Below, piece after piece: positions 41,687 to 63,025 of a stretch of DNA of 64,000 nucleotides. Positions within the stretch are counted from its first letter, which is position 1; each line of letters opens with the position of its first letter. The notes beneath the pieces were generated by a model. The model had not been told where the DNA came from, did no database searches, and saw only the letters and a program-made list of their open reading frames with translations. The DNA comes from Tribonema minus (Eukaryota > Sar > Xanthophyceae > Tribonematales > Tribonemataceae): the NCBI GenBank assembly GCA_017506865.1, contig JAFCMP010000157.1, positions 1,054,001-1,118,000 of the forward strand, read 5' to 3'. Position numbers and translations under genes: made by a program.

Positions 41687-41699
41687 ATGTTTCAAGTGC

Positions 41700-43941: not shown

Positions 43942-44497
43942 TGACACGGGCAGCTGTATGTAAAGTAAACTATTTATGTAGCCTTCTGGCTTATGATGTT
44001 TCAACTCTATTATATTCGGCCGTTATTAGGGCCCAGGGCAATTGGTTCGAACTAGGGGAACATTGCAGGAAAACCCCTTAACCGGTGAGATCCTTGAGTC
44101 TCCCCAGATGAAGGGTTGTGCTTGCAAGGCCTCGGTTCTTGTCACTCAGCTAGGATACCACGGCTCCAGGATAGAGACAACTGAAGCCAACAACCATCAA
44201 CCATCATGGACCCGTCTAAATCAGCCCAAGCCAACGCTGCCCCATCTACAAGTAAGACAGGCTTAACATAACAAATATAACCCCAACCTTGTTTCATGGC
44301 AACCGAAGCAGGACCTGAACCTGCAACCCCCCGCTTCGCAGGCGGATGCCCTATCCGTTAAGGGGTTTTCCTGCAATGTTCCCCTAGTTCGAACCAATTG
44401 CCCTGGGCCCTAATAACGGCCGAATATAATAGAGTTGAAACATCATAAGCCAGAAGGCTACATAAATAGTTTACTTTACATACAGCTGCCCGTGTCA
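43942..44497 (-). repeat. 3' LTR of family 2, with 141-bp terminal inverted repeats
   Basis: Begins tgacacgggcagctg and ends cagctgcccgtgtca. 43942-44082 and 44357-44497 are inverted copies, identical or nearly so by eye, enclosing about 274 bp. The TG...CA ends and the adjacent polypurine tract support reading the whole 556 bp as one LTR. Most LTRs have inverted ends of only a few bases. Confidence 0.7.
44297..44366 (-). other. tRNA-Arg-like sequence with CCA inside the LTR
   Basis: Read on the minus strand: a D-arm-like ccttaacggatagggc; an anticodon arm with loop ctgcgaa (would read GCG, Arg); a good T arm (gcaggttcaggtcctgc); then ttcggtt, g and CCA. Encoded CCA after a discriminator base suggests derivation from a mature tRNA by reverse transcription. 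The 5' acceptor half is incomplete, so it is not a working gene. Confidence 0.5.
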
Positions 44498-44750: not shown

Positions 44751-47700
44751 CTACCTCACATCACCATCGCTCAAATCCATGTCATCGCCACTGTATGAAT
44801 CTGAACCTCCCTGACCAGACTCCTGGCCCAAGGGGACCTCTTCTGCGACCGTGGTCAGCAGTAGGTTCCAACTGGACATAGGGTCTGCCTCAGCCTGCTC
44901 GCTTGTAACTGCGGTGCTGTAGTAGTCAGGCCTCAGCCGCACGGTGATTAAACGCGTGACTGGGTGCCCGTTGTAATGCACGCGAAATGTGTACTTGCCG
45001 GCCCGGGGCAAGTATTCCTTGAGCACTGCACGGCTCCAACCAGTTGCACTTTTGACTCTCACGGTCTGACCATGGTAAGTCGCACCAAAGTCTGGTGGGA
45101 TCCCAGGGCACATTTCCTGCACCACCTTGGGGCTAGAAACCGTGACGCCCAGATCCTTTGCGCGCTGCTGAGTGGCTTCAGCCAACGCAATTGCGCATTG
45201 CAACTGCCGCTTTGTGAAGTCCTCCCAGTCACCATCTTCATAGCGCACGCGCCAGTACGGGGCGAGGTAACCAGTGATGGTTCCCCATAGGTACTTGACT
45301 TGTTGCTTAAGCGCGCCGCGCTCCTCACGCACCACCTTAGTACCTCTCGGGAATAGGGCCAGCGCAGCCTCTTTCGTGGATACGCGCCGGTCCTCCCGTG
45401 GTATCCTCGTGGCGTAGTCAGGCATGTCATTCACATGCTTCAACTCGTAGAGCGCGTGAAAAGTATCGAGCGTCCAAGGCATGGCAACCTCGAGTGCATC
45501 GTCCTCTGTCTTCCATGTGCTCAACGTACCATCTCTGAGCAGCCAACGGTAGTCCCACGAACCATTGGGGTTGTACCGGCGGTCTACCAGCCTCTCTAGC
45601 CAGCCATCCTTGGGCAGTTGCTTAATGTCTTCCTCATTAAGCACCGCGTAGGGGTTGTCAAGTTCCATGACACTTGGCCTTAAATGAAAAGGCTTCATGT
45701 TGGTCACATGTGCCCGCGTGCGACGCACCCGGCGCCCCATCATGCGGCATGAAAATGACAGCCCAGATCCGCCAGTTTCCTCTGCTACCACCCATGGTCC
45801 AATGAATTTAGGGTCCAGCTTCCTGGAGCGTCCCTTAGCAGGCTTCTGCTTGATCATGACCAGGTCCCCAACTTTAACCTTCATTGCGCGCTTGACCGCT
45901 TCATTAGCCTTGTCAACTCTGCGCGCCTTGATGCCATATGCCTCATCAATAACCTTCTGTGCCATTTTGAGGTTGACGCGCTTGCGTTCAATCTCAGAAT
46001 GTAAGTCGCCACCATGCACTTCATCAGGGAAGGTTTCGAACGGCAGGGACGGCTCGCGGCCATACACACAGTAGAAAGGGCTCAGGCCTGTTTCTTCTCT
46101 GGGGGTGGACCGGAGAGCGAACTGCACAGCCTCAACGCCCTCATGCCAATTCTGTTGGGTCTTGTCAACCCAGGCAGTCAGAATGGCCATGATGCGTTCA
46201 TTTTGCCGTTCAGCGACCCCATTTGCCTGTGGGTGGTATGCACTTGTGTCAATTTTCATGATCCTGAAAATTGAGCACAAATCGCGCACCACAATGTTCA
46301 GAAACTCCTTGCCTTGGTCCGACACCAGCTCCTCTAACATGGATCCCATTTCTAGGATTACCTTGTACAAGAGCCTTGCAACCGTATGCATGTCCTTGTT
46401 TTTAATTGGCATGAGCCAGCAAAATCCAGAGCGTGCCTCAATTACTGTCAGCAGCCCTATGTGCCCCTCTGAAGACACCACCGAGGTCATGGTGATGTCA
46501 GTGTGCGCTCGCTGAAACATGCGAGTTGGCAGTGTTAACATCATCTTGGCCTTGCCAGTCGTAGCCTTCTTGCGCTGTAGGCAAGACATGCAACTAGTGA
46601 CATACGTGTGTACATCACTGCTGATGCGAGGCCAGTAGAAGCGCTCAAACAGGCGGACATACGTGGCGCTTGCGCCGGCGTGACCGGCCGTGGCGTCGTC
46701 ATGCCCCAGCCTCAAAACCAGAGGGCGCAGCGCGGCGGGTACAAACCATTGGCGCAGCACCATCCCGCGTTTGGGGTGGCTGGTGGCCAGATGTACCAGC
46801 AGGCCGTCCTCCTCGTGACAGTACCAGTCACGGTTCACCATTAAGTGTGCAGCCAGCTCACTATCCTGCGGGTATATATTGTCCCTCAGAGTGCGTGACA
46901 CTGCCTGACACAAGGGGTCCCGCTGCTGGAGCTCAATAAACGCTTCCCGGCTTAGCATTGCCGGCACAGGCGTGGTCCCATCAACTGGTTCAGGGACCAG
47001 TTCATGGCTGGGCCTGCTGAGTGTGCGCTTACGGCGTGGCTCCGACACCCCCTCTGTTCGCTGCGGGGGGATGGCGCCCCCTGGTAGCGGTACAGCGGTG
47101 TTGGCAGCGACCCGGCGGCGCTTGGCAGATATGCTCGCAGTCTTGCTAGATGCCGGGGAGTCCCAGTCAGACTCTGCCGCCTCATCCATGCATGCATTAG
47201 CATACATATGCAAAGTAGCTGGACTGAAAGACATCGACGCAGTCTCTCCATCCGTCCACGAAGAGTCTTCCTCGTCCAGCTCACATAGCAAAACATTGAC
47301 CTGTTGGACCGTAAGCGTAGCCAGCCTGGCTGCTATGCTTGAGTCCTCACTTGCATTCTTCATGGCTAGCTCATTGAGCGAGAAGGGAGTGCCCCACTCA
47401 TTGCTCACCAGTTTACCCCTGAAGTTGGCAATTTTAATTGCCGCTGCAGAAACATGTGACCCATGGTTGGTCGCCTTTGCTTGGTCAGCAAACTCCCCTA
47501 AGGGCGCCGCAAACTCTTCCACAAAATGTGCAAACTTCACCCCTGAAGGTGGTGCTGCAAAGCATGGAATTGAGTCTGACCATTGCTCGTCTGCTTGCTC
47601 ATACTCTCTAGGAGCGTCCAACTCTTTTTGCATAGGGAGCCTGGACAGGCCGTCTGCATTTGAGTTCACCAGGCCTGGTCGGTGTTGTACGGTAATGTCG

Positions 47701-50700
47701 TACTCCAGCAACCTCATAGCCCACCGCATAAGCTTGCCATTGTGGTCCTGCAAAGTCAGCAGCCATCGTAGGGCCGCCGCATCTGTAACCACTGTGACTG
47801 GGTTGCCCCACACGTAAGGTCGGTAATGGTTGAGTGACAGCACGACGGCCAGGCACTCTAGCGCGGTAGCGCCAAGTTTGGCGTCTTGTGTGGAATTAAT
47901 TTTTGAGAAGTAACCCACTACTACTTCCATTTCCTCCTTCCCATTTACTGTGCGCCTGCGGCCTGCCGCGGGGGCAGCTTCTTTGCCACTAAGTGCCTGC
48001 ACTGGTTTAAATTGCGTCAAAATGCCACTAGTGGCAGTTTGAGATGCATCAGTGTACAGCACAAATGGTAGTGAGAAGTCTGGGTGTGACACCAGTTTTG
48101 CCTCGCACATTGCCTTTTTTAATGCCTCAAAGGCATCGCGCCTGCGCCTATCCCATACCATTTCTGCATCACTTTTGGTCAGCTCCACAAGTGGGGCTGC
48201 CAATGTCGCAAAATCTTGAACATACCGCCGGTAATAGTTGAAGCAGCCCAGTACTGTACGTACTAGCCCCTTGTCAGCTCTCCCTTTGACATTCAATGGC
48301 GCGCTCATGTCAGACATTGCCTGAACCTTTTCTGGGTCCGGACGAATGCCCCCTGATCCCACAATGTGACCAAGGAACTTGATCTCAGTTTGGAACCATT
48401 GGCATTTGTGCCGCGCCACACTTAGACCAGCGTCTTTGATGCGTGATAGGACGTCACGGATATGCGCAAGGTGCGTTTCCATGGAGTCATCATATATCAA
48501 GACGTCGTCGACGTAAACCATGGCATATGCACCTAGGGCAGCGCCCAAAGTGTTGTGCATCAAGCGTGTGAATTGCGCAGGCAAATTCACAAGCCCAAAA
48601 GGTGCCACTGTGTACTGCCATAGCCCTCCATCAGGTGTGCGGAATGCCGTTTTAGGCTTGTCACTTTCGCGCAATGGTATCTGATGGTAGCCCGCGGCCA
48701 TGTCGACTGAGGACACGTACCGGGCGCCCTTCATTTGATGCACCATATCATCGATGTTGCCTAGACCTCTGCTGTCGCGCTTCGTGACAGCGTTGAGACG
48801 GCGGAAGTCCACGCAAAATCGTATCTTATCACCTTGCCTTGCTAGTACTGGGTTGCATGCCCATGGACCATTGCTAGGCTCCACTTGCTTGCGCACATGC
48901 ATGGCCTTGACATGTTCCATGATGTACTCTGCCTCCTTTTGCGCCCACCTCCTAGCCTTTTCAGCGATAGGCATTGCATCACCAGTGTCAATCTCAAACT
49001 CCATGAGGTTTGTCACTGTCGGATTTTTGGGGTCCTTTGCAAACACGCTCGCGAATTCGTTGAACACATCCATCAGATGCTCAGCATATGGCCTACCATC
49101 GGGGGCTTTCATATCATGAAGGTCACCTTTGGTGGGTAGCATCTCGCGTAGCTCTGCTTCAGTGCAGGGTTCCTGTGTGGTACGAGTGCGTTCTGTGCCT
49201 GGTGTAGCAGCAGACACATTAGCAGCACCATAGGTACCAGCAGCCTTCCCCAATGCAATTGCTCGCAGCGCCGCGGTTGCAGCGTAGCTGAACTCGCTGT
49301 TCGGGTGGTGAGCTGCAGCCACCTGCAAGAGCTGTTGCTCAAGCTTGGTCGCAGATGCGTCCTCCAACTCAATGATATCCTCAGGCGAAGCCGGCCGTGC
49401 CTCACCAATGAAGGTGTTTCTGGCCATAAGCACCGGCTGGTCTGAGAAGTTTACCATGCGTGCGCGCACAGGGTTGTGCGCGCCAACAATATCCACCGAC
49501 ATGGCGGCCTTTACGCCCCTTTCTTGCAACTTCAACATCGTCTGAGACATTGCGGGTTGTATTACTGCCGAGTAGGGGCTCAGCCCTTTCACTGGTGGGT
49601 GTAATGCAACTTCAACGTTCACCTCGGTGTGCGCTGGAATGAGTATGTCATTCACCAGGCACACGGCACGATGCGCAGGGGGGGCTGGTACTTTGGGGCT
49701 AATTTTCACAACCCCTGCGGTCTTAGCGCCTTGCCACACCGTCCCATGCGCTGCCTCGCTGCCTAGCATCTTCAACTTTGGGCCGTCCGAACCTAACGGC
49801 TGGTATGTCAAATCCTCATAGTCAAAGAGGGTTTTGTACATGCCAAAGAAGTCGCTGCCTAGAATGGTGGTGATGGCCAAGTCCACAATGTAGAACTTGT
49901 GCCGCACCAGCTTGTTACCAAACCGTAAGGTGAGGTGCAAAGCGCCTACGATCTTGACCTGTGTGCGACTGTCTGCCAGTTCTATGACTGAATGGTCCCC
50001 CTTCTCAAGAGGGCATGTCGTCCCTGGAGATAGCTCATCCGCCGTTGCTTTTGCCATGATGCCTGCCTCAGCGCCGGGGTCCAGCAATGAGACAAAGTCT
50101 CGTTCTTTGAACCCACGTTGGTGCTGCACGCGTGCCTTCAGCCTGGCAAACCGCTGCTTGCTGGGCTGGCCACTTGGCAACACAACTGTCTCTCCCGGCC
50201 TCACCGAGGCGGGATCCACTTCAGCGGCTTGTGAGCGGCTCGCTTCATCGTGTAGCTTGGCAGCCACAGCGCTCACGCGAGGGTTGCCTAGCCCACGCCT
50301 GCGAGTTGCCTCATGCACCGTGTCGTCAAAGTGATGCTCGTCTTCACTGGCGTATGCACCTTGTGAGGAGCCGCTAGGGTGTGACTGCACAAGTTCCTCT
50401 TCCTCAACTTCATCAACATCAGAGTCTGAGTCATTGCACGAGTCATTGAGCGCTGTGCAAGACCAAGGACCTGTGTTCAAACCTTCTGCACATATCATAT
50501 CAGGGGTGACTGCATACTGCCAAGCACTGTATCGTGCGGTGATGGCCGCAACCCTAGCCTGCACCTTGCCTTGCTCAGTAGGAGTCTCTGCCACATGCAT
50601 GTAATCTTCAGACCCTGGCAGCATCCATTCAGGGGGGGGTGCACTAGGGTCATGGTCCAGGCGGACACCCCGGGGACAAGGGGCGCCTACTTGAAGATCA

Positions 50701-53700
50701 AGCATGCCAGATCCCACAAGCCCAACGGCAATGTGAAAAGCCATGCGTGGCATGACTAAGTTTACAAGCCATAACTTCATGTCCTCAATGGTGGCCTTGC
50801 ATGGCAAGTCACGTGTAAAGGTGAGCAGGACAGCCATTTCACGCAATGACAGTACTCTTGCATTTTGCACAGGGCCAGCATCATGTTCATCATCAGCCAC
50901 ATAGTCAGCCAGATCCACTGGTGGTTTTCCAGGGTTCCGCCTGACCGGGCTGGGCATGCAGTCATCGGCATCATACACACTCTTGGTACCCTTCACGCGA
51001 GATTTCCAAAAGAAACAGCGCTCAGGGCAGCGAAGAACGCGCCGTACGGACATGGGTAATGATGAACGCTGAATTGCATTAATTAACGCCCCGAACCGTG
51101 CCATAGCGGTCGTGACACCAACCCCTGCCCGCGCAATCACCACATACAGCCGCCGCCGGTGGCACGCTATGCTAAAATCCGACCCCTTCAGCTTGCTGAC
51201 ATAGAGACAGTAGCCGTGGGCCAGCAGCAAAGCCTGCGCGCGCGCCCACGCCTTGGAGCTGAGCATGGATACCACATTCTCGATGACACAGCAGCGCAGC
51301 TTCGCCCTCACAATCAGCCGCGCCGCCATGATCGTCACCTCCGCCGCTGCCCCCTCAACGCCACTCCCGTTTGCATAATCTGTGCACGGGGGGGACATTG
51401 TGGTGAGGTCAGGATCCAGTTCAGCCAGTGCTATGGCTACTGCATCATCGCTCAGGCACGCGTTTAAAACCTTGTGGGTGCCAGGGTGCAGTTCGTGGTA
51501 CGCCTCACACACGCGGGGGCACTTGTCAACAGCAAGTTGAGTGTCCACCACAAGGCCTGCCACACTTGCCTGCTTTAAACCCTCGTCCCAGCCACCAATG
51601 CCGCAGCATATGGAGGCGTGTGTCACATGCCGCGCTGCACCCGCCACTGGCATGCCAGCATCAGGGTCCTGTGTCACAGCGGTAGCACAGACAGGCGATT
51701 CGCTTGCATTAGGTATGGTAACCGTATGCGGCGAACCAGTGTTTGATGGGGGAGTATCATTTGCACTATCACCTTCAAGTTGCATGTTAGCATCAGCCGT
51801 AGACTGCGACACTTCCGCGAGGGAAGGTACGCTGGGTAACGAAGGATGCAACATAGCCAGCAATACGGCGTCATTGTGCCCAGGCGCGCGCTCACGTGGT
51901 GAGGTTGCGATGGACGCGGAGACGCACATATCACGTTGACCAAAAGCATGTTCAAGTTCAACTGCGGCGCGCGCACCGCTGGTGCCACCCCCTGAGAGGG
52001 CCGCACGCGCGCGCGCGAGCGAAGTAGACTCACCCTGAGCCCTCTGCCAGGCCACAAAGGCCATCATCTTGTGATACTCGTCCGCCTCCGCCGGCGTTGG
52101 CGCAGCGGCAGCAGCCGCCGCTGCCACGACCGGCGCCTGCGGCATAGCAGCCGGGGGCGGAAAAGGGGGGCGAGGACCGTACCGCGTGTACTGATTCGCC
52201 TGATGTGCCGGTGGCGCGCCGCGCGGCTCACCGCGCGGCCCGCCGTACGGTGCGGCGCGGGGGCGGCGGGAAGGATCAAACGCCGGGCAGTTGGGCGTGT
52301 TGCGATGCATGTCAACGGCGATACCGCGCGGCAGCGTTGTCTGGCAGTCAAAGCATACCCAGTGAGAACGCGGGTTGAACTGCACCATGCCTGAATTGTC
52401 ATGCTCAGGCGCGGGGGGCCCACGCCTGGCGGGCGCGGCTGCCGGAGCCGACTTGGCGGCTACAGCAGCAGCTCGCACCTCCAAGGCTTTCTCCTTTTTG
52501 GCGAGGCGCCTCTCCTTGTCCGCCAGCGTTCTCTCCTTGCGCGCAATCTGCGAGGCAGAGGGCGTCTGGCGCGGCGCGTCACTTGCTTGCGACGCGTCGT
52601 CGCGCAAACTCTCAAGGTCAGAACCATCCTGCGACGTGGGTCCGCCCTTGCTCGCGGCATGGGCTTTCCCGTTCCAGGTGCGCTCAATGTGCTCCTGAAT
52701 GCTCGCAAGACCAGCGTCCTGCCAGCCCCTCCCCAGTGCAACCCTAGCGGCCGTCCGCTCCTTGGATGAGATGAGGCGTAAGTAGTGAAGCTTTTCAGAA
52801 AACTCACGAGAACTTTCGCTACCACCTGCCTGTACAACCATGTTCCGCACGCGGAGAGCCAACTCCCCAGGGCTCTCGCTCGGGAGACGCCTGGCTTGAA
52901 GTAGAGAATTGTACACCTTCTCTTGGGCAGCTTCAGAGTTGAAGTGCTCAATTATGGCTGCACAACGTTCTGCGTACGTTAGCTGCTCCCACCCCTTCCG
53001 CTTGCCGCCGACCTCTAGGGACAGTAGGCGCACAGTTGAAAGTAAGGGTTTGTCCTTCGACGCCTTTATGGCCACACTTAGAGCGTGGACCTTGACGTCC
53101 TCTGCCATGGAGCGCAGCGCAGCGGTGAGTGAGTCAAGCCTGGTGACACATACACCTACGCGAGAAGAGAGGTCGGCTACGCCGGCAATCCTACCAGCCT
53201 TCGCATAGACGTCTCCCTTGCCCCTGTTAGCAGCGTCAGCGCCGTCCGCTCGGGACGGTTCACTGCCATCGTCGCTGGGGGTCGTGGTGACCCCAGTGCT
53301 CGACGGCGCAGTATGAGACATCTGAATCGAGGCCGCCACGTCAACGCGGGGCGGGGCAACCTGGACCAAACGCCCTGCCTGCAAGTGCTGCACCAGCTGC
53401 ACCTTCTCGAACGCCTTGAGACGGCGCAGTGTATCTGCATCGCCAAGATCGCGATCCATGATTGCGTCGAGTTCTATGCGAGCAGTCTCCAAAGCGCTGA
53501 ATCTCTGTGAGTACGCGCAGCGGTCAACTTCTACCTGCTCCATGCTCGCCTTAAGACGTGGAAGCTGGTACGTGATCGCATAGAGGTCCGTCTTGTACAT
53601 TGTACGTTCAGGGGAACCCTCCTTGCTAGCATCGCGCAGGCCACGCAACACCTTAGCCTGGGCGTCAAGGTCCTGGAAACGTTCTTGCAGCTGTACCTCG

Positions 53701-54056
53701 TCTGCAGACAGTCTCGCCGAGGCAGATGCCCCGGACTTGTGCGAGGCCGCCAACAGCTCGAGCAGCCGGGTATAACGGGCTCTGGATACGGTTAGACCGG
53801 CACCAGTCTCACCCGCATCAGAGCTGGCGTCGTCACCGGCGCCAGCGCATATCTCGTCGTCGAGCTCCGCCTCTCGCTCGCTACCGCCAACGGCCGGCGC
53901 AGGAGGGGTTGCGGGCTCCTTTGACGACTTGGACTTCTTCGCGGGCTTCTCCGGCTTGTCAGCCGGTGCCGCATCAGCCTTGCCCTTACTCCCCTTTCTT
54001 TTCGTGGAGGAGTCCGAGTCTGCACATGGAACAGGATCATGTGTTGAGTCTCTCAA
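44751..54056 (-). CDS. Gag - cytosine methyltransferase - Pol polyprotein, family 2
   Basis: 3101 codons open from 54056. The first codon is TTG and the true start is uncertain. Order by approximate residue: charged helical Gag (1-550); zinc segment VCFDCQTTLPRG...H...C (562-589); C5 methyltransferase (about 810-1120) with CCGIGGWDEGL, catalytic SPPCTDYANG, ENV and CHRRRLYVV; retroviral-type aspartic protease region (about 1315-1400); reverse transcriptase (1685-1872, YVDD about 1848); RNase H (1995-2122); integrase HHCC finger and DDE core (2445-2625); GPY/F-type module (about 2752); chromodomain-like WDYRWLLRDGTLSTWKTEDD (2815-2870); Tudor-like YWRVRYEDGDWEDF (2919-2955). The methyltransferase would transfer methyl groups from AdoMet to cytosine C5. 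The frame looks whole. Confidence 0.88.
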   Translation of the reverse strand: MRDSTHDPVPCADSDSSTKRKGSKGKADAAPADKPEKPAKKSKSSKEPATPPAPAVGGSEREAELDDEICAGAGDDASSDAGETGAGLTVSRARYTRLLELLAASHKSGASASARLSADEVQLQERFQDLDAQAKVLRGLRDASKEGSPERTMYKTDLYAITYQLPRLKASMEQVEVDRCAYSQRFSALETARIELDAIMDRDLGDADTLRRLKAFEKVQLVQHLQAGRLVQVAPPRVDVAASIQMSHTAPSSTGVTTTPSDDGSEPSRADGADAANRGKGDVYAKAGRIAGVADLSSRVGVCVTRLDSLTAALRSMAEDVKVHALSVAIKASKDKPLLSTVRLLSLEVGGKRKGWEQLTYAERCAAIIEHFNSEAAQEKVYNSLLQARRLPSESPGELALRVRNMVVQAGGSESSREFSEKLHYLRLISSKERTAARVALGRGWQDAGLASIQEHIERTWNGKAHAASKGGPTSQDGSDLESLRDDASQASDAPRQTPSASQIARKERTLADKERRLAKKEKALEVRAAAVAAKSAPAAAPARRGPPAPEHDNSGMVQFNPRSHWVCFDCQTTLPRGIAVDMHRNTPNCPAFDPSRRPRAAPYGGPRGEPRGAPPAHQANQYTRYGPRPPFPPPAAMPQAPVVAAAAAAAAPTPAEADEYHKMMAFVAWQRAQGESTSLARARAALSGGGTSGARAAVELEHAFGQRDMCVSASIATSPRERAPGHNDAVLLAMLHPSLPSVPSLAEVSQSTADANMQLEGDSANDTPPSNTGSPHTVTIPNASESPVCATAVTQDPDAGMPVAGAARHVTHASICCGIGGWDEGLKQASVAGLVVDTQLAVDKCPRVCEAYHELHPGTHKVLNACLSDDAVAIALAELDPDLTTMSPPCTDYANGSGVEGAAAEVTIMAARLIVRAKLRCCVIENVVSMLSSKAWARAQALLLAHGYCLYVSKLKGSDFSIACHRRRLYVVIARAGVGVTTAMARFGALINAIQRSSLPMSVRRVLRCPERCFFWKSRVKGTKSVYDADDCMPSPVRRNPGKPPVDLADYVADDEHDAGPVQNARVLSLREMAVLLTFTRDLPCKATIEDMKLWLVNLVMPRMAFHIAVGLVGSGMLDLQVGAPCPRGVRLDHDPSAPPPEWMLPGSEDYMHVAETPTEQGKVQARVAAITARYSAWQYAVTPDMICAEGLNTGPWSCTALNDSCNDSDSDVDEVEEEELVQSHPSGSSQGAYASEDEHHFDDTVHEATRRRGLGNPRVSAVAAKLHDEASRSQAAEVDPASVRPGETVVLPSGQPSKQRFARLKARVQHQRGFKERDFVSLLDPGAEAGIMAKATADELSPGTTCPLEKGDHSVIELADSRTQVKIVGALHLTLRFGNKLVRHKFYIVDLAITTILGSDFFGMYKTLFDYEDLTYQPLGSDGPKLKMLGSEAAHGTVWQGAKTAGVVKISPKVPAPPAHRAVCLVNDILIPAHTEVNVEVALHPPVKGLSPYSAVIQPAMSQTMLKLQERGVKAAMSVDIVGAHNPVRARMVNFSDQPVLMARNTFIGEARPASPEDIIELEDASATKLEQQLLQVAAAHHPNSEFSYAATAALRAIALGKAAGTYGAANVSAATPGTERTRTTQEPCTEAELREMLPTKGDLHDMKAPDGRPYAEHLMDVFNEFASVFAKDPKNPTVTNLMEFEIDTGDAMPIAEKARRWAQKEAEYIMEHVKAMHVRKQVEPSNGPWACNPVLARQGDKIRFCVDFRRLNAVTKRDSRGLGNIDDMVHQMKGARYVSSVDMAAGYHQIPLRESDKPKTAFRTPDGGLWQYTVAPFGLVNLPAQFTRLMHNTLGAALGAYAMVYVDDVLIYDDSMETHLAHIRDVLSRIKDAGLSVARHKCQWFQTEIKFLGHIVGSGGIRPDPEKVQAMSDMSAPLNVKGRADKGLVRTVLGCFNYYRRYVQDFATLAAPLVELTKSDAEMVWDRRRRDAFEALKKAMCEAKLVSHPDFSLPFVLYTDASQTATSGILTQFKPVQALSGKEAAPAAGRRRTVNGKEEMEVVVGYFSKINSTQDAKLGATALECLAVVLSLNHYRPYVWGNPVTVVTDAAALRWLLTLQDHNGKLMRWAMRLLEYDITVQHRPGLVNSNADGLSRLPMQKELDAPREYEQADEQWSDSIPCFAAPPSGVKFAHFVEEFAAPLGEFADQAKATNHGSHVSAAAIKIANFRGKLVSNEWGTPFSLNELAMKNASEDSSIAARLATLTVQQVNVLLCELDEEDSSWTDGETASMSFSPATLHMYANACMDEAAESDWDSPASSKTASISAKRRRVAANTAVPLPGGAIPPQRTEGVSEPRRKRTLSRPSHELVPEPVDGTTPVPAMLSREAFIELQQRDPLCQAVSRTLRDNIYPQDSELAAHLMVNRDWYCHEEDGLLVHLATSHPKRGMVLRQWFVPAALRPLVLRLGHDDATAGHAGASATYVRLFERFYWPRISSDVHTYVTSCMSCLQRKKATTGKAKMMLTLPTRMFQRAHTDITMTSVVSSEGHIGLLTVIEARSGFCWLMPIKNKDMHTVARLLYKVILEMGSMLEELVSDQGKEFLNIVVRDLCSIFRIMKIDTSAYHPQANGVAERQNERIMAILTAWVDKTQQNWHEGVEAVQFALRSTPREETGLSPFYCVYGREPSLPFETFPDEVHGGDLHSEIERKRVNLKMAQKVIDEAYGIKARRVDKANEAVKRAMKVKVGDLVMIKQKPAKGRSRKLDPKFIGPWVVAEETGGSGLSFSCRMMGRRVRRTRAHVTNMKPFHLRPSVMELDNPYAVLNEEDIKQLPKDGWLERLVDRRYNPNGSWDYRWLLRDGTLSTWKTEDDALEVAMPWTLDTFHALYELKHVNDMPDYATRIPREDRRVSTKEAALALFPRGTKVVREERGALKQQVKYLWGTITGYLAPYWRVRYEDGDWEDFTKRQLQCAIALAEATQQRAKDLGVTVSSPKVVQEMCPGIPPDFGATYHGQTVRVKSATGWSRAVLKEYLPRAGKYTFRVHYNGHPVTRLITVRLRPDYYSTAVTSEQAEADPMSSWNLLLTTVAEEVPLGQESGQGGSDSYSGDDMDLSDGDVR

Positions 54057-55170
54057 ATATACCCCTCACCATCCAACAATAAGATATCCATCAGCCTGGG
54101 AGAACAAAAATTATTATAGTACTCATCAAGAGAGCCTCTCTTGGAACATGGGATGTCCCTGTGCGCTCGCCCGTGCAATTAGCCAGCCCGGGACGTGCAC
54201 AGAACACACCGGCACTCCCATGAGATGCATGTGGTTGCCAATCATAGCCACGCAAGTCAGTAGAACCACGGGCTCCCGCAACCGTGTCAACCGCGGCATG
54301 CTATGTCTCAATGCATTTGATTCTAGTGCGGCAGCGGCAGAGCAGAGTTACTGTTGTTGCTGCGCAAGCACCATATGCACACCTGTTTATCGTCGTAGTT
54401 AACGCTGTTGCCTAGCTGATTGTGGCCTGCACCAATCCAACACCTCCGGTATGCAACCGTTACCTAAGTTGCTCTGGGTAGCAACTTCAAGCGAGCGTCG
54501 ACGCATTCGCAAGACGAACTGTGATCATCAGCTCGATTACACCATCATCAGATGGTGCCGAGAAACAAAGGGTGGGGGGTGATGGGTAACCTCGCAAGCC
54601 CACTAATGCCCGTGCAAGTCAGTACGGGAGAACCCGTACCGCAGCTTTCGACAGTCAGCCTCATCATCTCAATTACACAGCGTTAACAGCCGACGTCATG
54701 CGAAGCAACTACGGGTGTGTGAGCCGCTGCTAAGCATGATTCCTCCGACACAGGCACTGGAGCTAGGGCGGCTCACGCAGCATAAAAGCACTGCTGCTCA
54801 GTGTTCACTTGGTAGCGACAGCTGGCACAACCAAGCAAAGGATGCGGCGTGCAGGCGCATATTTACAATGTGCATGCACACCGACCCCTGCGCTAAATTC
54901 CTCCTCGTAGCTGCCTCCAGTTAGTACGAGCGGTAACCAACACTCAGCGCGTCCGCCTCGCGAAGGGCCGATACTGAATGATTGGACGATTTCCTATTCA
55001 GTCAATTGGCCTACGTTAAGGAGCGGGAAAGCAACGTTGGCGCTCCAGAGCACGTGTTGATGAGGGCAAGCGAGGGCTAACGATACGATATTTAAGGAGC
55101 ACGTGTAGCTTGGTTCGTCAGGGCCCGCCAGAGCGAAGCAAGGGGTGGGTAAGGACTGTCTGTAGGTGCC
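54057..55170. other. Gene-free region upstream of family 2; left arm of an inverted repeat
   Basis: No supported gene and no LTR match. 54196-55170 (975 bp) recurs inverted at 63026-64000, apparently without a gap. It could include the family 2 leader or be unrelated DNA joined to it. Confidence 0.6.
54196..55170 (+). repeat. Inverted repeat X, left copy
   Basis: Ends tgtaggtgcc at 55170. Its inverted partner begins ggcacctaca at 63026 and runs to the window end, where it matches position 54196 exactly in register. I saw no mismatch in 975 bp. The pair encloses the second family 2 copy. Confidence 0.85.
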
Positions 55171-58100
55171 AGGCGTGGGCCCCCCGCGCCTGAGCATGAC
55201 AATTCAGGCATGGTGCAGTTCAACCCGCGTTCTCACTGGGTATGCTTTGACTGCCAGACAACGCTGCCGCGCGGTATCGCCGTTGACATGCATCGCAACA
55301 CGCCCAACTGCCCGGCGTTTGATCCTTCCCGCCGCCCCCGCGCCGCACCGTACGGCGGGCCGCGCGGTGAGCCGCGCGGCGCGCCACCGGCGCATCAGGC
55401 GAATCAGTACACGCGGTACGGTCCCCGCCCCCCTTTTCCGCCCCCGGCTGCTATGCCGCAGGCGCCGGTCGTGGCAGCGGCGGCTGCTGCCGCTGCGCCA
55501 ACGCCAGCGGAGGCGGACGAGTATCACAAGATGATGGCCTTTGTGGCCTGGCAGAGGGCTCAGGGTGAGTCTACTTCGCTCGCGCGCGCGCGTGCGGCCC
55601 TCTCAGGGGGTGGCACCAGCGGTGCGCGCGCCGCAGTTGAACTTGAACATGCTTTTGGTCAACGTGATATGTGCGTCTCCGCGTCCATCGCAACCTCACC
55701 ACGTGAGCGCGCGCCTGGGCACAATGACGCCGTATTGCTGGCTATGTTGCATCCTTCGTTACCCAGCGTACCTTCCCTCGCGGAAGTGTCGCAGTCTACG
55801 GCTGATGCTAACATGCAACTTGAAGGTGATAGTGCAAACGATACTCCCCCATCAAACACTGGTTCGCCGCATACGGTTACCATACCTAATGCAAGCGAAT
55901 CGCCTGTCTGTGCTACCGCTGTGACACAGGACCCTGATGCTGGCATGCCAGTGGCGGGTGCAGCGCGGCATGTGACACACGCCTCCATATGCTGCGGCAT
56001 TGGTGGCTGGGACGAGGGTTTAAAGCAGGCAAGTGTGGCAGGCCTTGTGGTGGACACTCAACTTGCTGTTGACAAGTGCCCCCGCGTGTGTGAGGCGTAC
56101 CACGAACTGCACCCTGGCACCCACAAGGTTTTAAACGCGTGCCTGAGCGATGATGCAGTAGCCATAGCACTGGCTGAACTGGATCCTGACCTCACCACAA
56201 TGTCCCCCCCGTGCACAGATTATGCAAACGGGAGTGGCGTTGAGGGGGCAGCGGCGGAGGTGACGATCATGGCGGCGCGGCTGATTGTGAGGGCGAAGCT
56301 GCGCTGCTGTGTCATCGAGAATGTGGTATCCATGCTCAGCTCCAAGGCGTGGGCGCGCGCGCAGGCTTTGCTGCTGGCCCACGGCTACTGTCTCTATGTC
56401 AGCAAGCTGAAGGGGTCGGATTTTAGCATAGCGTGCCACCGGCGGCGGGTGTATGTGGTGATTGCGCGGGCAGGGGTTGGTGTCACGACCGCTATGGCAC
56501 GGTTCGGGGCGTTAATTAATGCAATTCAGTGTTCATCATTACCCATGTCCGTACGGCGTGTTCTTCGCTGCCCTGAGCGCTGTTTCTTTTGGAAATCTCG
56601 CGTGAAGGGTACCAAGAGTGTGTATGATGCCGATGACTGCATGCCCAGCCCGGTCAGGCGGAACCCTGGAAAACCACCAGTGGATCTGGCTGACTATGTG
56701 GCTGATGATGAACATGATGCTGGCCCTGTGCAAAATGCAAGAGTACTGTCATTGCGTGAAATGGCTGTTCTGCTCACCTTCACACGTGACTTGCCATGCA
56801 AGGCCACCATTGAGGACATGAAGTTATGGCTTGTAAACTTAGTCATGCCACGCATGGCTTTTCACATTGCCGTTGGGCTTGTGGGATCTGGCATGCTTGA
56901 TCTTCAAGTAGGCGCCCCTTGTCCCCGGGGTGTCCGCCTGGACCATGACCCTAGTGCACCCCCCCCTGAATGGATGCTGCCAGGGTCTGAAGATTACATG
57001 CATGTGGCAGAGACTCCTACTGAGCAAGGCAAGGTGCAGGCTAGGGTTGCGGCCATCACCGCACGATACAGTGCTTGGCAGTATGCAGTCACCCCTGATA
57101 TGACATGTGCAGAAGGTTTGAACACAGGTCCTTGGTCTTGCACAGCGCTCAATGACTCGTGCAATGACTCAGACTCTGATGTTGATGAAGTTGAGGAAGA
57201 GGAACTTGTGCAGTCACACCCTAGCGGCTCCTCACAAGGTGCATACGCCAGTGAAGACGAGCAGCACTTTGACGACACGGTGCATGAGGCAACTCGCAGG
57301 CGTGGGCTAGGCAACCCTCGCGTGAGCGCTGTGGCTGCCAAGCTACACGATGAAGCGAGCCGCTCACAAGCCGCTGAAGTGGATCCCGCCTCGGTTAGGC
57401 CGGGAGAGACAGTTGTGTTGCCAAGTGGCCAGCCCAGCAAGCAGCGGTTTGCCAGGCTGAAGGCACGCGTGCAGCACCAACGTGGGTTCAAAGAACGAGA
57501 CTTTGTCTCATTGCTGGACCCCGGCGCTGAGGCAGGCATCATGGCAAAAGCAACGGCGGATGAGCTATCTCCAGGGACGACATGCCCTCTTGAGAAGGGG
57601 GACCATTCAGTCATAGAACTGGCAGACAGTCGCACACAGGTCAAGATCGTAGGCGCTTTGCACCTCACCTTACGGTTTGGTAACAAGCTGGTGCGGCACA
57701 AGTTCTACATTGCGGACTTGGCCATCACCACCATTCTAGGCAGCGACTTCTTTGGCATGTACAAAACCCTCTTTGACTATGAGGATTTGACATACCAGCC
57801 GTTAGGTTCGGACGGCCCAAAGTTGAAGATGCTAGGCAGCGAGGCAGCGCATGGGACGGTGTGGCAAGGCGCTAAGACCGCAGGGGCTGTGAAAATTAGC
57901 CCCAAAGTACCAGCCCCCCCTGCGCATCGTGCCGTGTGCCTGGTGAATGACATACTCATTCCAGCGCACACCGAGGTGAACGTTGAAGTTGTATTACACC
58001 CACCAGTGAAAGGGCTGAGCCCCTACTCGGCAGTAATACAACCCGCAATGTCTCAGACGATGTTGAAGTTGCAAGAAAGGGGCGTAAAGGCCGCCATGTC

Positions 58101-61100
58101 GGTGGATATTGTTGGCGCGCACAACCCTGTGCGCGCACGCATGGTGAACTTCTCAGACCAGCCGGTGCTTATGGCCAGAAACACCTTCATTGGTGAGGCA
58201 CGGCCGGCTTCGCCTGAGGATATCATTGAGTTGGAGGACGCATCTGCGACCAAGCTTGAGCAACAGCTCTTGCAGGTGGCTGCAGCTCACCACCCGAACA
58301 GCGAGTTCAGCTACGCTGCAACCGCGGCGCTGCGAGCAATTGCATTGGGGAAGGCTGCTGGTACCTATGGTGCTGCTAATGTGTCTGCTGCTACACCAGG
58401 CACAGAACGCACTCGTACCACACAGGAACCCTGCACTGAAGCAGAGCTACGCGAGATGCTACCCACCAAAGGTGACCTTCATGATATGAAAGCCCCCGAT
58501 GGTAGGCCATATGCTGAGCATCTGATGGATGTGTTCAACGAATTCGCGAGCGTGTTTGCAAAGGACCCCAAAAATCCGACAGTGACAAACCTCATGGAGT
58601 TTGAGATTGACACTGGTGATGCAATGCCCATCGCTGAAAAGGCTAGGAGGTGGGCGCAAAAGGAGGCAGAGTACATCATGGAACATGTCAAGGCCATGCA
58701 TGTGCGCAAGCAAGTGGAGCCTAGCAATGGTCCATGGGCATGCAACCCAGTACTAGCAAGGCAAGGTGATAAGATACGATTTTGCGTGGACTTCCGCCGT
58801 CTCAATGCTGTCACGAAGCGCGACAGCAGAGGTCTAGGCAACATCGATGATATGGTGCATCAAATGAAGGGCGCCCGGTACGTGTCCTCAGTCGACATGG
58901 CCGCGGGCTACCATCAGATACCATTGCGCGAAAGTGACAAGCCTAAAACGGCATTCCGCACACCTGATGGAGGGCTATGGCAGTACACAGTGGCACCTTT
59001 TGGGCTTGTGAATTTGCCTGCGCAATTCACACGCTTGATGCACAACACTTTGGGCGCTGCCCTAGGTGCATATGCCATGGTTTACGTCGACGACGTCTTG
59101 ATATATGATGACTCCATGGAAACGCACCTTGCGCATATCCGTGACGTCCTATCACGCATCAAAGACGCTGGTCTAAGTGTGGCGCGGCACAAATGCCAAT
59201 GGTTCCAAACTGAGATCAAGTTCCTTGGTCACATTGTGGGATCAGGGGGCATTCGTCCGGACCCAGAAAAGGTTCAGGCAATGTCTGACATGAGCGCGCC
59301 ATTGAATGCCAAAGGGAGAGCTGACAAGGGGCTAGTACGTACAGTACTGGGCTGCTTCAACTATTACCGGCGGTATGTTCAAGATTTTGCGACATTGGCA
59401 GCCCCACTTGTGGAGCTGACCAAAAGTGATGCAGAAATGGTATGGGATAGGCGCAGGCGCGATGCCTTTGAGGCATTAAAAAAGGCAATGTGCGAGGCAA
59501 AACTGGTGTCACACCCAGACTTCTCACTACCATTTGTGCTGTACACTGATGCATCTCAAACTGCCACTAGTGGCATTTTGACGCAATTTAAACCAGTGCA
59601 GGCACTTAGTGGCAAAGAAGCTGCCCCCGCGGCAGGCCGCAGGCGCACAGTAAATGGGAAGGAGGAAATGGAAGTAGTAGTGGGTTACTTCTCAAAAATT
59701 AATTCCACACAAGACGCCAAACTTGGCGCTACCGCGCTAGAGTGCCTGGCCGTCGTGCTGTCACTCAACCATTACCGACCTTACGTGTGGGGCAACCTAG
59801 TCACAGTGGTTACAGATGCGGCGGCCCTACGATGGCTGCTGACTTTGCAGGACCACAATGGCAAGCTTATGCGGTGGGCTATGAGGTTGCTGGAGTACGA
59901 CATTACCGTACAACACCGACCAGGCCTGGTGAACTCAAATGCAGACGGCCTGTCCAGGCTCCCTATGCAAAAAGAGTTGGACGCTCCTAGAGAGTATGAG
60001 CAAGCAGACGAGCAATGGTCAGACTCAATTCCATGCTTTGCAGCACCACCTTCAGGGGTGAAGTTTGCACATTTTGTGGAAGAGTTTGCGGCGCCCTTAG
60101 GGGAGTTTGCTGACCAAGCAAAGGCGACCAACCATGGGTCACATGTTTCTGCAGCGGCAATTAAAATTGCCAACTTCAGGGGTAAACTGGTGAGCAATGA
60201 GTGGGGCACTCCCTTCTCGCTCAATGAGCTAGCCATGAAGAATGCAAGTGAGGACTCAAGCATAGCAGCCAGGCTGGCTACGCTTACGGTCCAACAGGTC
60301 AATGTTTTGCTATGTGAGCTGGACGAGGAAGACTCTTCGTGGACGGATGGAGAGACTGCGTCGATGTCTTTCAGTCCAGCTACTTTGCATATGTATGCTA
60401 ATGCATGCATGGATGAGGCGGCAGAGTCTGACTGGGACTCCCCGGCATCTAGCAAGACTGCGAGCATATCTGCCAAGCGCCGCCGGGTCGCTGCCAACAC
60501 CGCTGTACCGCTACCAGGGGGCGCCATCCCCCCGCAGCGAACAGAGGGGGTGTCGGAGCCACGCCGTAAGCGCACACTCAGCAGGCCCAGCCATGAACTG
60601 GTCCCTGAACCAGTTGACGGGACCACGCCTGTGCCGGCAATGCTAAGCCGGGAAGCGTTTATTGAGCTCCAGCAGCGGGACCCCTTGTGTCAGGCAGTGT
60701 CACGCACTCTGAGGGACAATATATACCCGCAGGATAGTGAGCTGGCTGCACACTTAATGGTGAACCGTGACTGGTACTGTCACGAGGAGGACGGCCTGCT
60801 GGTACATCTGGCCACCAGCCACCCCAAACGCGGGATGGTGCTGCGCCAATGGTTTGTACCCGCCGCGCTGCGCCCTCTGGTTTTGAGGCTGGGGCATGAC
60901 GACGCCACGGCCGGTCACGCCGGCGCAAGCGCCACGTATGTCCGCCTGTTTGAGCGCTTCTACTGGCCTCGCATCAGCAGTGATGTACACACGTATGTCA
61001 CTAGTTGCATGTCTTGCCTACAGCGCAAGAAGGCTACGACTGGCAAGGCCAAGATGATGTTAACACTGCCAACTCGCATGTTTCAGCGAGCGCACACTGA

Positions 61101-63020
61101 CATCACCATGACCTCGGTGGTGTCTTCAGAGGGGCACATAGGGCTGCTGACAGTAATTGAGGCACGCTCTGGATTTTGCTGGCTCATGCCAATTAAAAAC
61201 AAGGACATGCATACGGTTGCAAGGCTCTTGTACAAGGTAATCCTAGAAATGGGATCCATGTTAGAGGAGCTGGTGTCGGACCAAGGCAAGGAGTTTCTGA
61301 ACATTGTGGTGCGCGATTTGTGCTCAATTTTCAGGATCATGAAAATTGACACAAGTGCATACCACCCACAGGCAAATGGGGTCGCTGAACGGCAAAATGA
61401 ACGCATCATGGCCATTCTGACTGCCTGGGTTGACAAGACCCAACAGAATTGGCATGAGGGCGTTGAGGCTGTGCAGTTCGCTCTCCGGTCCACCCCCAGA
61501 GAAGAAACAGGCCTGAGCCCTTTCTACTGTGTGTATGGCCGCGAGCCGTCCCTGCCATTCGAAACCTTCCCTGATGAAGTGCATGGTGGTGACTTACATT
61601 CTGAGATTGAACGCAAGCGCGTCAACCTCAAAATGGCACAGAAGGTTATTGATGAGGCATATGGCATCAAGGCGCGCAGAGTTGACAAGGCTAATGAAGC
61701 GGTCAAGCGCGCAATGAAGGTTAAAGTTGGGGACCTGGTCATGATCAAGCAGAAGCCTGCTAAGGGACGCTCCAGGAAGCTGGACCCTAAATTCATTGGA
61801 CCATGGGTGGTAGCAGAGGAAACTGGCGGATCTGGGCTGTCATTTTCATGCCGCATGATGGGGCGCCGGGTGCGTCGCACGCGGGCACATGTGACCAACA
61901 TGAAGCCTTTTCATTTAAGGCCAAGTGTCATGGAACTTGACAAGCCCTACGCGGTGCTTAATGAGGAAGACATTAAGCAACTGCCCAAAGATGGCTGGCT
62001 AGAGAGGCTGGTAGACCGCCGGTACAACCCCAATGGTTCGTGGGACTACCGTTGGCTGCTCAGAGATGGTACGTTGAGCACATGGAAGACAGAGGACGAT
62101 GCACTCGAGGTTGCCATGCCTTGGACGCTCGATACTTTTCACGCGCTCTACGAGTTGAAGCATGTGAATGACATGCCTGACTACGCCATGAGGATACCAC
62201 GGGAGGACCGGCGCGTAGCCACGAAAGAGGCTGCGCTGGCCCTATTCCCGAGAGGTACTAAGGTGGTGCGTGAGGAGCGCGGCGCGCTTAAGCAACAAGT
62301 CAAGTACCTATGGGGAACCATCACTGGTTACCTCGCCCCGTACTGGCGCGTGCGCTATGAAGATGGTGACTGGGAGGACTTCACAAAGCGGCAGTTGCAA
62401 TGCGCAATTGCGTTGGCTGAAGCCACTCAGCAGCGCGCAAAGGATCTGGGCGTCACGGTTTCTAGCCCCAAGGTGGTGCAGGAAATGTGCCCTGGGATCC
62501 CACCAGACTTTGGTGCGACTTACCATGGTCAGACCGTGAGAGTCAAAAGTGCAACTGGTTGGAGCCGTGCAGTGCTCAAGGAATACTTGCCCCGGGCCGG
62601 CAAGTACACATTTCGCGTGCATTACAACGGGCACCCAGTCGCGCGTTTAATCACCGTGCGGCTGAGGCCTGACTACTACAGCACCGCAGTTACAAGCGAG
62701 CAGGCTGAGGCAGACCCTATGTCCAGTTGGAACCTACTGCTGACCACGGTCGCAGAAGAGGTCCCCTTGGGCCAGGAGTCTGGTCAGGGAGGTTCAGATT
62801 CATACAGTGGCGATGACATGGATTTGAGCGATGGTGATGTGAGGTAGCTACACCACGCATGTGCTCAGTGGCTGGCCGGCGCTGTGACATGAAGCTATCC
62901 TCGAGCTGTGCAGCGGCGCCTTAAACGAATATTGCGCTGCACAGTACCTATGTGGATACTCTATACGAGGGTCTGTAAAGGTTGGGTGTGGAGGTGAAGC
63001 AAATTGAATTACACATACGC
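55168..63020 (+). mobile_element. Inverted 7853-bp copy of family 2 coding region
   Basis: Matches 44578-52430 in reverse orientation with equal length (7853 bp), so no net insertion or deletion. It starts within Gag and stops just before the polypurine tract, so it has no LTR. About a dozen amino-acid differences in 2545 residues separate the two copies. It lies between the two copies of repeat X, three bases of which (gcc) overlap its left edge. Not a normal retrotransposition product. Confidence 0.85.
55210..62847 (+). CDS. Methyltransferase - Pol polyprotein of the inverted family 2 copy
   Basis: 2545 residues from the ATG at 55210 (MVQFNPRSHWVCFDC). It begins at the zinc segment and lacks the upstream Gag. 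Order by window position: methyltransferase (about 55960-56870, with CCGIGG, SPPCTDYANG, ENV and CHRRRVYVV); protease region (about 57480-57560); reverse transcriptase (58560-59150, YVDD); RNase H (59500-59960); integrase finger and DDE core (60880-61410); GPY/F-type module (about 61780); chromodomain-like (62020-62160); Tudor-like (62330-62380). The frame is open throughout despite the rearranged context, so the copying event is recent. Confidence 0.85.
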   Translation: MVQFNPRSHWVCFDCQTTLPRGIAVDMHRNTPNCPAFDPSRRPRAAPYGGPRGEPRGAPPAHQANQYTRYGPRPPFPPPAAMPQAPVVAAAAAAAAPTPAEADEYHKMMAFVAWQRAQGESTSLARARAALSGGGTSGARAAVELEHAFGQRDMCVSASIATSPRERAPGHNDAVLLAMLHPSLPSVPSLAEVSQSTADANMQLEGDSANDTPPSNTGSPHTVTIPNASESPVCATAVTQDPDAGMPVAGAARHVTHASICCGIGGWDEGLKQASVAGLVVDTQLAVDKCPRVCEAYHELHPGTHKVLNACLSDDAVAIALAELDPDLTTMSPPCTDYANGSGVEGAAAEVTIMAARLIVRAKLRCCVIENVVSMLSSKAWARAQALLLAHGYCLYVSKLKGSDFSIACHRRRVYVVIARAGVGVTTAMARFGALINAIQCSSLPMSVRRVLRCPERCFFWKSRVKGTKSVYDADDCMPSPVRRNPGKPPVDLADYVADDEHDAGPVQNARVLSLREMAVLLTFTRDLPCKATIEDMKLWLVNLVMPRMAFHIAVGLVGSGMLDLQVGAPCPRGVRLDHDPSAPPPEWMLPGSEDYMHVAETPTEQGKVQARVAAITARYSAWQYAVTPDMTCAEGLNTGPWSCTALNDSCNDSDSDVDEVEEEELVQSHPSGSSQGAYASEDEQHFDDTVHEATRRRGLGNPRVSAVAAKLHDEASRSQAAEVDPASVRPGETVVLPSGQPSKQRFARLKARVQHQRGFKERDFVSLLDPGAEAGIMAKATADELSPGTTCPLEKGDHSVIELADSRTQVKIVGALHLTLRFGNKLVRHKFYIADLAITTILGSDFFGMYKTLFDYEDLTYQPLGSDGPKLKMLGSEAAHGTVWQGAKTAGAVKISPKVPAPPAHRAVCLVNDILIPAHTEVNVEVVLHPPVKGLSPYSAVIQPAMSQTMLKLQERGVKAAMSVDIVGAHNPVRARMVNFSDQPVLMARNTFIGEARPASPEDIIELEDASATKLEQQLLQVAAAHHPNSEFSYAATAALRAIALGKAAGTYGAANVSAATPGTERTRTTQEPCTEAELREMLPTKGDLHDMKAPDGRPYAEHLMDVFNEFASVFAKDPKNPTVTNLMEFEIDTGDAMPIAEKARRWAQKEAEYIMEHVKAMHVRKQVEPSNGPWACNPVLARQGDKIRFCVDFRRLNAVTKRDSRGLGNIDDMVHQMKGARYVSSVDMAAGYHQIPLRESDKPKTAFRTPDGGLWQYTVAPFGLVNLPAQFTRLMHNTLGAALGAYAMVYVDDVLIYDDSMETHLAHIRDVLSRIKDAGLSVARHKCQWFQTEIKFLGHIVGSGGIRPDPEKVQAMSDMSAPLNAKGRADKGLVRTVLGCFNYYRRYVQDFATLAAPLVELTKSDAEMVWDRRRRDAFEALKKAMCEAKLVSHPDFSLPFVLYTDASQTATSGILTQFKPVQALSGKEAAPAAGRRRTVNGKEEMEVVVGYFSKINSTQDAKLGATALECLAVVLSLNHYRPYVWGNLVTVVTDAAALRWLLTLQDHNGKLMRWAMRLLEYDITVQHRPGLVNSNADGLSRLPMQKELDAPREYEQADEQWSDSIPCFAAPPSGVKFAHFVEEFAAPLGEFADQAKATNHGSHVSAAAIKIANFRGKLVSNEWGTPFSLNELAMKNASEDSSIAARLATLTVQQVNVLLCELDEEDSSWTDGETASMSFSPATLHMYANACMDEAAESDWDSPASSKTASISAKRRRVAANTAVPLPGGAIPPQRTEGVSEPRRKRTLSRPSHELVPEPVDGTTPVPAMLSREAFIELQQRDPLCQAVSRTLRDNIYPQDSELAAHLMVNRDWYCHEEDGLLVHLATSHPKRGMVLRQWFVPAALRPLVLRLGHDDATAGHAGASATYVRLFERFYWPRISSDVHTYVTSCMSCLQRKKATTGKAKMMLTLPTRMFQRAHTDITMTSVVSSEGHIGLLTVIEARSGFCWLMPIKNKDMHTVARLLYKVILEMGSMLEELVSDQGKEFLNIVVRDLCSIFRIMKIDTSAYHPQANGVAERQNERIMAILTAWVDKTQQNWHEGVEAVQFALRSTPREETGLSPFYCVYGREPSLPFETFPDEVHGGDLHSEIERKRVNLKMAQKVIDEAYGIKARRVDKANEAVKRAMKVKVGDLVMIKQKPAKGRSRKLDPKFIGPWVVAEETGGSGLSFSCRMMGRRVRRTRAHVTNMKPFHLRPSVMELDKPYAVLNEEDIKQLPKDGWLERLVDRRYNPNGSWDYRWLLRDGTLSTWKTEDDALEVAMPWTLDTFHALYELKHVNDMPDYAMRIPREDRRVATKEAALALFPRGTKVVREERGALKQQVKYLWGTITGYLAPYWRVRYEDGDWEDFTKRQLQCAIALAEATQQRAKDLGVTVSSPKVVQEMCPGIPPDFGATYHGQTVRVKSATGWSRAVLKEYLPRAGKYTFRVHYNGHPVARLITVRLRPDYYSTAVTSEQAEADPMSSWNLLLTTVAEEVPLGQESGQGGSDSYSGDDMDLSDGDVR

Positions 63021-63025
63021 TTCAT

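Follow-up and report, generated by a model that had tools for sequence, protein, structure and literature searches.

A Ty3/gypsy retrotransposon polyprotein of Tribonema minus carries a C5 cytosine methyltransferase (MT) domain ahead of its protease (PR), and this MT-bearing element is a family with a set of related families rather than a single element. Selection keeps the MT, more weakly than the reverse transcriptase (RT). On balance, we lean towards the reading that the MT between gag and the protease is packaged with RT and integrase, methylates element DNA and marks new copies.

The window, that is, the whole stretch of 64,000 nucleotides that was analysed, contains the reference element, copy A. 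The 3101-codon Ty3/gypsy frame that an earlier sequence-only reading had placed at 44751-54056 was recovered at these coordinates; its strand, which that reading had left unstated, is minus, and the plus-strand reading of 44751-54056 contains many stops. The features of copy A are as follows.

44751..54056, minus strand: Ty3/gypsy polyprotein of copy A, 3101 codons, in the order gag, MT, protease, RT, RNase H, integrase, chromatin-reader-like segment (stop-to-stop frame 44754-54065)
52287..52355, minus strand: gag zinc motif C-x2-C-x12-H-x5-C, distinct from the CCHC knuckle (motif reading)
50637..51659, minus strand: C5 cytosine methyltransferase domain, with the motif IV Cys codon at 51384-51386 (PF00145, motifs and AlphaFold2 model)
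49617..50099, minus strand: protease-like segment, LLDPGAE...ILGSDFF (motif reading)
48327..48989, minus strand: reverse transcriptase (Pfam)
47667..48179, minus strand: RNase H (Pfam)
46017..46799, minus strand: integrase, H2C2 plus rve (Pfam)
45057..45899, minus strand: C-terminal segment with weak chromodomain-like and Tudor-like matches (profile matches)

Pfam placed RVT_1 at residues 1743-1899 of copy A, RNase H at 1993-2119, the integrase zinc domain at 2439-2497, and rve at 2511-2602. The order protease-RT-RNase H-integrase within one pol fits a Ty3/gypsy LTR retrotransposon. No in-frame ATG was found before residue 153 of the copy A frame, and the N-terminus is provisional, as it may involve splicing or another start.

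The placement of the MT after the gag zinc segment and before the protease, in the same reading frame, had been proposed from the letters and is borne out by a Pfam match and by the order of the motifs. The profile search suggested as a check returned a C5 methyltransferase match: DNA_methylase (PF00145) matched residues 814-978 of copy A (E 4e-11, 43.3 bits, cut-off 22), reached 51.9 bits against the cut-off of 22 on the MT domain alone, and matched 13/13 members of the MT alignment A1 at E ≤0.01. Motifs I (CCGIGGWDEGL), IV (SPPCTDYANG), VI (ENV), and VIII (CHRRRLYVV) were all found in copy A in the order described, and candidates for motifs IX (VLSLREMAVLLTF) and X (LVNLVMPRMAFHIAVGL) follow motif VIII; the motif numbers are those of the C5 methyltransferase series. 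The AlphaFold2 model of the domain had a pTM of 0.81 and a mean pLDDT of 78.3, with values mostly >90 in the N-terminal lobe, 57 around the motif IV loop, and mostly <50 in target-recognition residues 213-267.

The A1 profile matched 52 PDB sequences at E 0.001, with DNMT2 tRNA methyltransferases best (E 3.7e-26), followed by HhaI (6e-21) and DNMT1 (6e-19); HaeIII was also matched, and no DNMT3-named structure was among the 52. No PDB match was obtained with the copy A MT domain alone. The element MT thus does not look like Dnmt3, a comparison that uses the PDB names matched by the profile, the MT tree having been built without Dnmt3 rows. The NCBIfam dcm profile was found in 12/13 MTs, with copy A below its cut-off. 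In protein searches, 5 matches were obtained with the copy A MT domain, 15 with the MT alignment, and none with the full polyprotein when the search was restricted to the MT region. Relatives of the MT were present among metagenome proteins (P0004-P0006 and P0009), and none carrying copy A's MT domain were found in viral contigs. Protein P0007, recorded as JKP88DRAFT_250746 of T. minus (Xanthophyceae, Stramenopiles), is 100% identical to locus L034 along its full 469 residues. The element MTs are ~20-27% identical to protein matches outside the element families. They have the catalytic motifs of the N-terminal lobe in common with C5 MTs of the Dcm, HhaI, DNMT1, and DNMT2 types, but differ from these in sitting in a retrotransposon polyprotein and in their divergent target-recognition part.

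A search of the 158-Mb assembly with the copy A MT gave at least 31 full-length matches with 98-100% identity and 0 stops, eight of which, copies A and D included, sit in 3104-codon frames. An MT was paired with an RT when the MT match lay ≤4.5 kb upstream on the same strand; because only the best candidates were scored and listed, the MT/RT counts are lower bounds. Close copies elsewhere keep the domain: an MT lies upstream of 33/36 RTs that are 98-100% identical to that of A, at a distance of 1.75-2.06 kb, and the remaining 3 are at contig starts. Together with the 31 near-identical MT copies, this rules out a one-off fusion, an outcome that the sequence-only reading had allowed for. The element has also been copied recently. 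Among the matches listed, an MT was upstream of 11/14 RTs at 89-97% identity to A, 17/23 at 72-79%, 43/61 at 60-71%, and 9/16 below 60%, amounting to at least 113/150 for all RT matches listed for A's RT. The other 37 of the 150 listed, some in long open frames, may include MT-free relatives. Upstream of the best 150 RVT_1 matches in the genome, an MT or MT-like match was found in at least 125 cases. Many copies have shortened frames.

The suggested comparison of dN/dS between MT and RT showed that the MT is under purifying selection across copies and families, more weakly than RT. By the Nei-Gojobori method, the MT values of copy A against its three nearest families were 0.14-0.19: copy A against L037 gave 0.152 for MT, 0.207 for PR, and 0.021 for RT; against L038, 0.138 for MT and 0.027 for RT; and against element C, a related element in the window, 0.188 for MT and 0.069 for RT, with dS near saturation. 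Values were also obtained for L014 versus L031 (MT 0.221, RT 0.084) and for the degenerate pair L035 versus L036 (MT 0.167, RT 0.027), and L013 versus L023 gave 0.211 for MT and 0.284 for RT over 92 codons. More distant MT pairs had higher dN/dS values of 0.20-0.38 with saturated dS, including 0.20-0.32 for A against L012, L020, L026, and L028, also with saturated dS; the MT values were 0.254 for L019 versus L022 and 0.379 for L012 versus L026. In pN/pS, the linkers flanking the MT were less constrained than the parts of the MT, among them the target-recognition part: for A versus L037, the MT parts gave 0.17-0.27, PR 0.27, linkers 0.37-0.40, and RT 0.05, and for A versus C, the MT parts gave 0.37-0.38, PR 0.42, linkers 0.56-0.70, and RT 0.20. 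Out-of-frame comparisons (RT of L019-L022; pN/pS of L038 past PR) were left out.

The MT tree (29 rows) and the RT tree (20 rows) contained the same three clades, each on one side of a branch, under the labels T1-T3 assigned beforehand from MT type. Clade support was 99/96, 100/99, and 96/89 in the MT tree and 75/100, 73/100, and 99/98 in the RT tree, in which the outgroup row (the 12-kb element of the window) had a branch far too long for rooting. In T1 (A, C, L012, L020, L026, L028, L037, and L038), the MT lies ahead of the protease. In T2 (MT rows L013, L014, L023, and L031; RT rows also L011 and L018), a protease-like motif precedes the MT, as read by regular expression in loci whose frame reaches far enough. 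With the same regular expression, no protease-like motif was found in T3 (MT rows L019, L022, L035, and L036; RT row also L021). A single branch (90/92) separated all element MTs from the host genes L001, L002, and L004 and six bacterial-type rows, a moderate support from a tree with few references, several long branches, and a joined-long-branch warning that includes T3. One MT capture with later relocation would be the simpler reading of these trees. A broader scenario, which we put forward tentatively, is that most visible Gypsies of T. minus stem from one old capture of an MT that was neither Dnmt3 nor near the host genes seen; the domain would later have crossed the protease, joined C-terminal chromatin readers in one clade, giving a writer plus reader in one polyprotein that would let the element both create and recognise a chromatin niche of its own, and become a spreading non-catalytic module in another.

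The reader-like matches in the C-terminal segment of copy A consist of a weak chromodomain-like match (CDYL2, E 0.01) and PTM_DIR17_Tudor at 22.0 bits (E 1.4e-4), below the curated cut-off of 27.2; the same profile gave 15.5 bits in L026 and was absent from the listed matches of the broken-off ORF of element C. The combination of an MT with such segments in T1 suggests a writer-reader element. In the related brown alga Ectocarpus, Gypsy-10_Ec32 has a C-terminal Tudor domain, and a T. minus homologue has been reported (PMC12477816, in excerpt); the Tudor-like match in copy A is weak. The excerpted account of Gypsy-10_Ec32 mentions no MT, whereas copy A has one, and the two lineages are set side by side here by description (PMC12477816).

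In the window, copy A is one arm of a larger structure and lacks its own 5' LTR. The features of this locus are as follows.

44357-55171, minus strand: element stretch of copy A (locus comparison)
55168..63021, plus strand: copy B, a partial inverted copy, 99.6% identical to A, with its MT at 55939-56946 (sequence comparison)
63025..64000, on to 73698 outside the window, plus strand: copy D, nearly full, 99.8% identical to A (sequence comparison)
43942..44296, plus strand: left outer LTR of the compound insertion, 355 nt (identical partner at 73699-74053, outside the window)
44297..44356, minus strand: tRNA-like stretch of 60 nt with an anticodon arm (GCG), ending in CCA, in the primer-binding-site region (by eye)
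21622..33764, minus strand: element C, a related MT-bearing Gypsy, with its MT at 28506-29504 (LTRs 21622-22031 and 33355-33764)

A direct repeat, CACA, flanks both outer LTRs, and copies A, B, and D between identical LTRs look like one ~30-kb compound insertion in head-to-head and tandem arrangement, perhaps of joined cDNAs; it may also be an assembly error. The tRNA-like stretch adjoins the left LTR, resembles the 3' part of a tRNA, and far exceeds the usual length of a primer binding site; ARAGORN called no tRNA at 44297..44356. The assembly contains three exact occurrences of its first 57 nt, including C180:83607-83663 and C517:523517-523573, which both sit a few kb from MTs of the A family. 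Element C has plain direct LTRs of 410 nt that are 99.3% identical, with a CGAG repeat on both sides, and its frame stops early within the integrase. LTRs bounded by a target-site duplication, as expected of a Ty3/gypsy LTR retrotransposon, are thus present for element C (CGAG) and for the compound insertion (CACA). The protease active-site motif (near 50085 on the minus strand in copy A) reads D-P-G in copies A, B, and D versus D-S-G in element C. Adjoining element C, another retroelement (12342-21597, minus strand) has RVT_1 and rve matches, and no MT match was found in it at E 1e-3.

That retrotransposons can carry a DNMT is already known. As the sequence-only reading had stated, MTs captured by retroelements have published precedents in other algae and dinoflagellates: the excerpted 2018 study describes DNMT-bearing retrotransposons in dinoflagellates and charophytes, reports de novo CG methylation in yeast by isolated SymbioDIRS-Dnmt3 domains, and proposes self-methylation of retrotranscribed DNA (PMC5890265). 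The closest description in these excerpts is KnitGypsy-Dnmt3 of Klebsormidium nitens, likewise an LTR Gypsy in several copies with an MT in the Pol frame under purifying selection (PMC5890265). It has, however, an MT of the Dnmt3 clade and a DIRS-like repeat arrangement, whereas the T. minus MTs gave no DNMT3-named match and element C has plain LTRs; the T. minus element also differs in its MT ahead of the protease and in its stramenopile host (PMC5890265, as excerpted). SymbioLINE-Dnmt and SymbioDIRS-Dnmt3 of Symbiodinium are also many-copy retrotransposons with a C5 MT, but they are LINE and DIRS-like elements, SymbioDIRS with a Dnmt3, in contrast to the Gypsy with gag-MT-PR order in T. minus (PMC5890265, same excerpts). 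Among open-licence papers, the literature searched (subscription papers, preprints, and supplements being outside its scope), none was found that describes an MT in retrotransposons of Tribonema or xanthophytes. As far as these searches reach, the new features are the stramenopile host, the Dnmt3-unlike MT, the coexistence of gag-MT-PR and PR-MT-RT orders, a clade with degenerate MTs, and the joined reader-like segments.

In the mechanism that we lean towards, the MT would be packaged with RT and integrase as part of a single Gag-Pol-like precursor, and the protease would free it, or it would work as a fusion. It would then methylate element cDNA in the particle or right after integration, with CpG as the most likely target. 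For the element, the probable gain would be that new copies arrive premarked and are quietened and tolerated; alternatively, the C-terminal reader-like segment would steer copies to methylated chromatin.

CpG transitions were enriched in comparisons of element copies. Between A and D, they occurred at 7/1386 CpG sites vs 5/4617 others (odds ratio 4.7, p 0.009); odds ratios were 4.0 for A-B (p 0.0012), 3.7 for B-D (p 0.017), 2.7 for L013-L018, 2.6 for L024-L026, and 1.8 for L021-L022, with no enrichment in the element pair L014-L016 (1.4, p 0.53). The LTR pair of element C differed at 0/20 CpG and 3/168 other sites. Enrichment was also seen in a non-element control pair, L002-L003 (odds ratio 2.6, p 0.0007), and the footprint may therefore originate from the host. 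The transitions fit CpG methylation somewhere in the genome, which either host or element enzymes may have made. The CpG observed/expected ratio was 0.82 in A and 0.83 in C versus 1.02 and 1.06 for two stretches nearby, and 0.67 in L010; two T2 loci showed no depletion (1.02, 1.14). CpG depletion was rejected as a mark of self-methylation, since the elements are not singled out, given the T2 values of 1.02-1.14 and the enriched control pair. According to an excerpted survey, T. minus has DNMT5, a DNMT4-like protein, HELLS, and CDCA7 (PMC10538959). Standalone C5 methyltransferases of a different type, reading GGFPCVGLS, are encoded at loci L001 (C223:937874), L002, and L003; L001 adjoins a frame that by eye resembles a nucleotide kinase and is perhaps in an inserted viral stretch. 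L004 (C523:358815-359333), named by eye, is probably the host DNMT2 gene, with at least two exons and the motif SPPCQPYTRIG.

Degenerate MTs bear on whether catalysis is what keeps the domain. At motif IV, L035 and the metagenome relative P0009 have S-T-R-C instead of P-P-C, and L036 has lost the motif by deletion; L035 and L036 both retain the rest of the domain, and the fetched stretches of both are open. These loci (on C15 and C214, respectively), where an MT search of the genome had listed no match, were tried as MT-free Gypsy controls and rejected because degenerate MTs are present. The L036 family has at least 28 genome matches that run from query residue 96 or 100 to 315, several of them within frames of 3452-3455 codons, and 27/28 of these places have a neighbouring piece covering 1-71 or 5-71, with residues 72-95 (Cys included) unmatched, a gap taken from match coordinates, the letters having been read in L036. 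The gap shared by 27 of the 28 places implies that the family spread after the loss of motif IV, and methylation in cis therefore cannot be essential for all these elements; it is possible that intact families help this one in trans. The same observations favour an alternative in which any methylation is a by-product and the domain persists chiefly for a role without catalysis, either binding cDNA, RNA, or chromatin or helping the precursor to fold, as does the MT dN/dS of 0.167 for L035/L036, which resembles that of intact pairs. Conservation elsewhere speaks against it. Among 34 MT rows (4 of them repeat fetches of the same places, with six fragment or host rows left out), the P-C of motif IV is kept in all 32 other than L035 and L036, and ENV of motif VI is kept in 32/34, being missing in L034 and ENA in L036; R-x-R of motif VIII is present in 13/13 aligned MTs, degenerate ones included, and T1 retains the full motif set even where RT is 55% identical to that of A (L028). 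We consider this alternative unlikely.

An action on RNA in the manner of DNMT2, with genomic RNA or the tRNA primer as substrate, is suggested by the best solved relatives, the DNMT2 tRNA methyltransferases (E 3.7e-26), and by the use of tRNA primers by LTR elements together with the 60-nt tRNA-like stretch at the LTR. However, HhaI and DNMT1 follow closely, and the catalytic half accounts for most of the coverage of the best matches. The tripeptide CFT in the target-recognition part is a mark of DNMT2, and it is absent from the copy A MT domain; moreover, the DNMT2-like L004 of T. minus lies outside the element MTs in the tree, on a long branch. An RNA substrate rather than DNA is accordingly judged highly improbable. 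Somewhat less improbable, though still very unlikely, is a role against the host or rivals, in which the MT methylates their sequences or shields cDNA from nucleases or self-integration. The head-to-head, near-identical copies in one insertion fit self-integration as a real hazard, and MT or MT-like elements dominate the best RT matches (125 of the 150 listed), but such joining happened despite the MT, as the compound insertion shows. Finally, the shortened frames of many copies might point to a decaying passenger or an assembly artefact; the 31 stop-free full-length MT matches, eight of them in 3104-codon frames, the purifying selection on the MT, and the metagenome relatives P0004-P0006 and P0009 leave this reading next to no probability.

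Stramenopiles would be a third eukaryotic lineage beside the two in the excerpts of PMC5890265, with another MT type in another position. Intact MT families and a motif-IV-deleted family in one genome constitute a natural experiment on the puzzle of why a transposon carries an enzyme used for transposon silencing, and the comparison between them is sharpened by the negligible 5mC reported for Ectocarpus (PMC12477816, in excerpt).

Elsewhere in the window, a frame of 785 aa at 8032-10389 (minus strand) matched Herpes_ori_bp (PF02399, 36.4 bits, cut-off 20). Diverged short tandem and inverted repeats were observed at 41396-42123 and 3760-4855, with parts common to both places.
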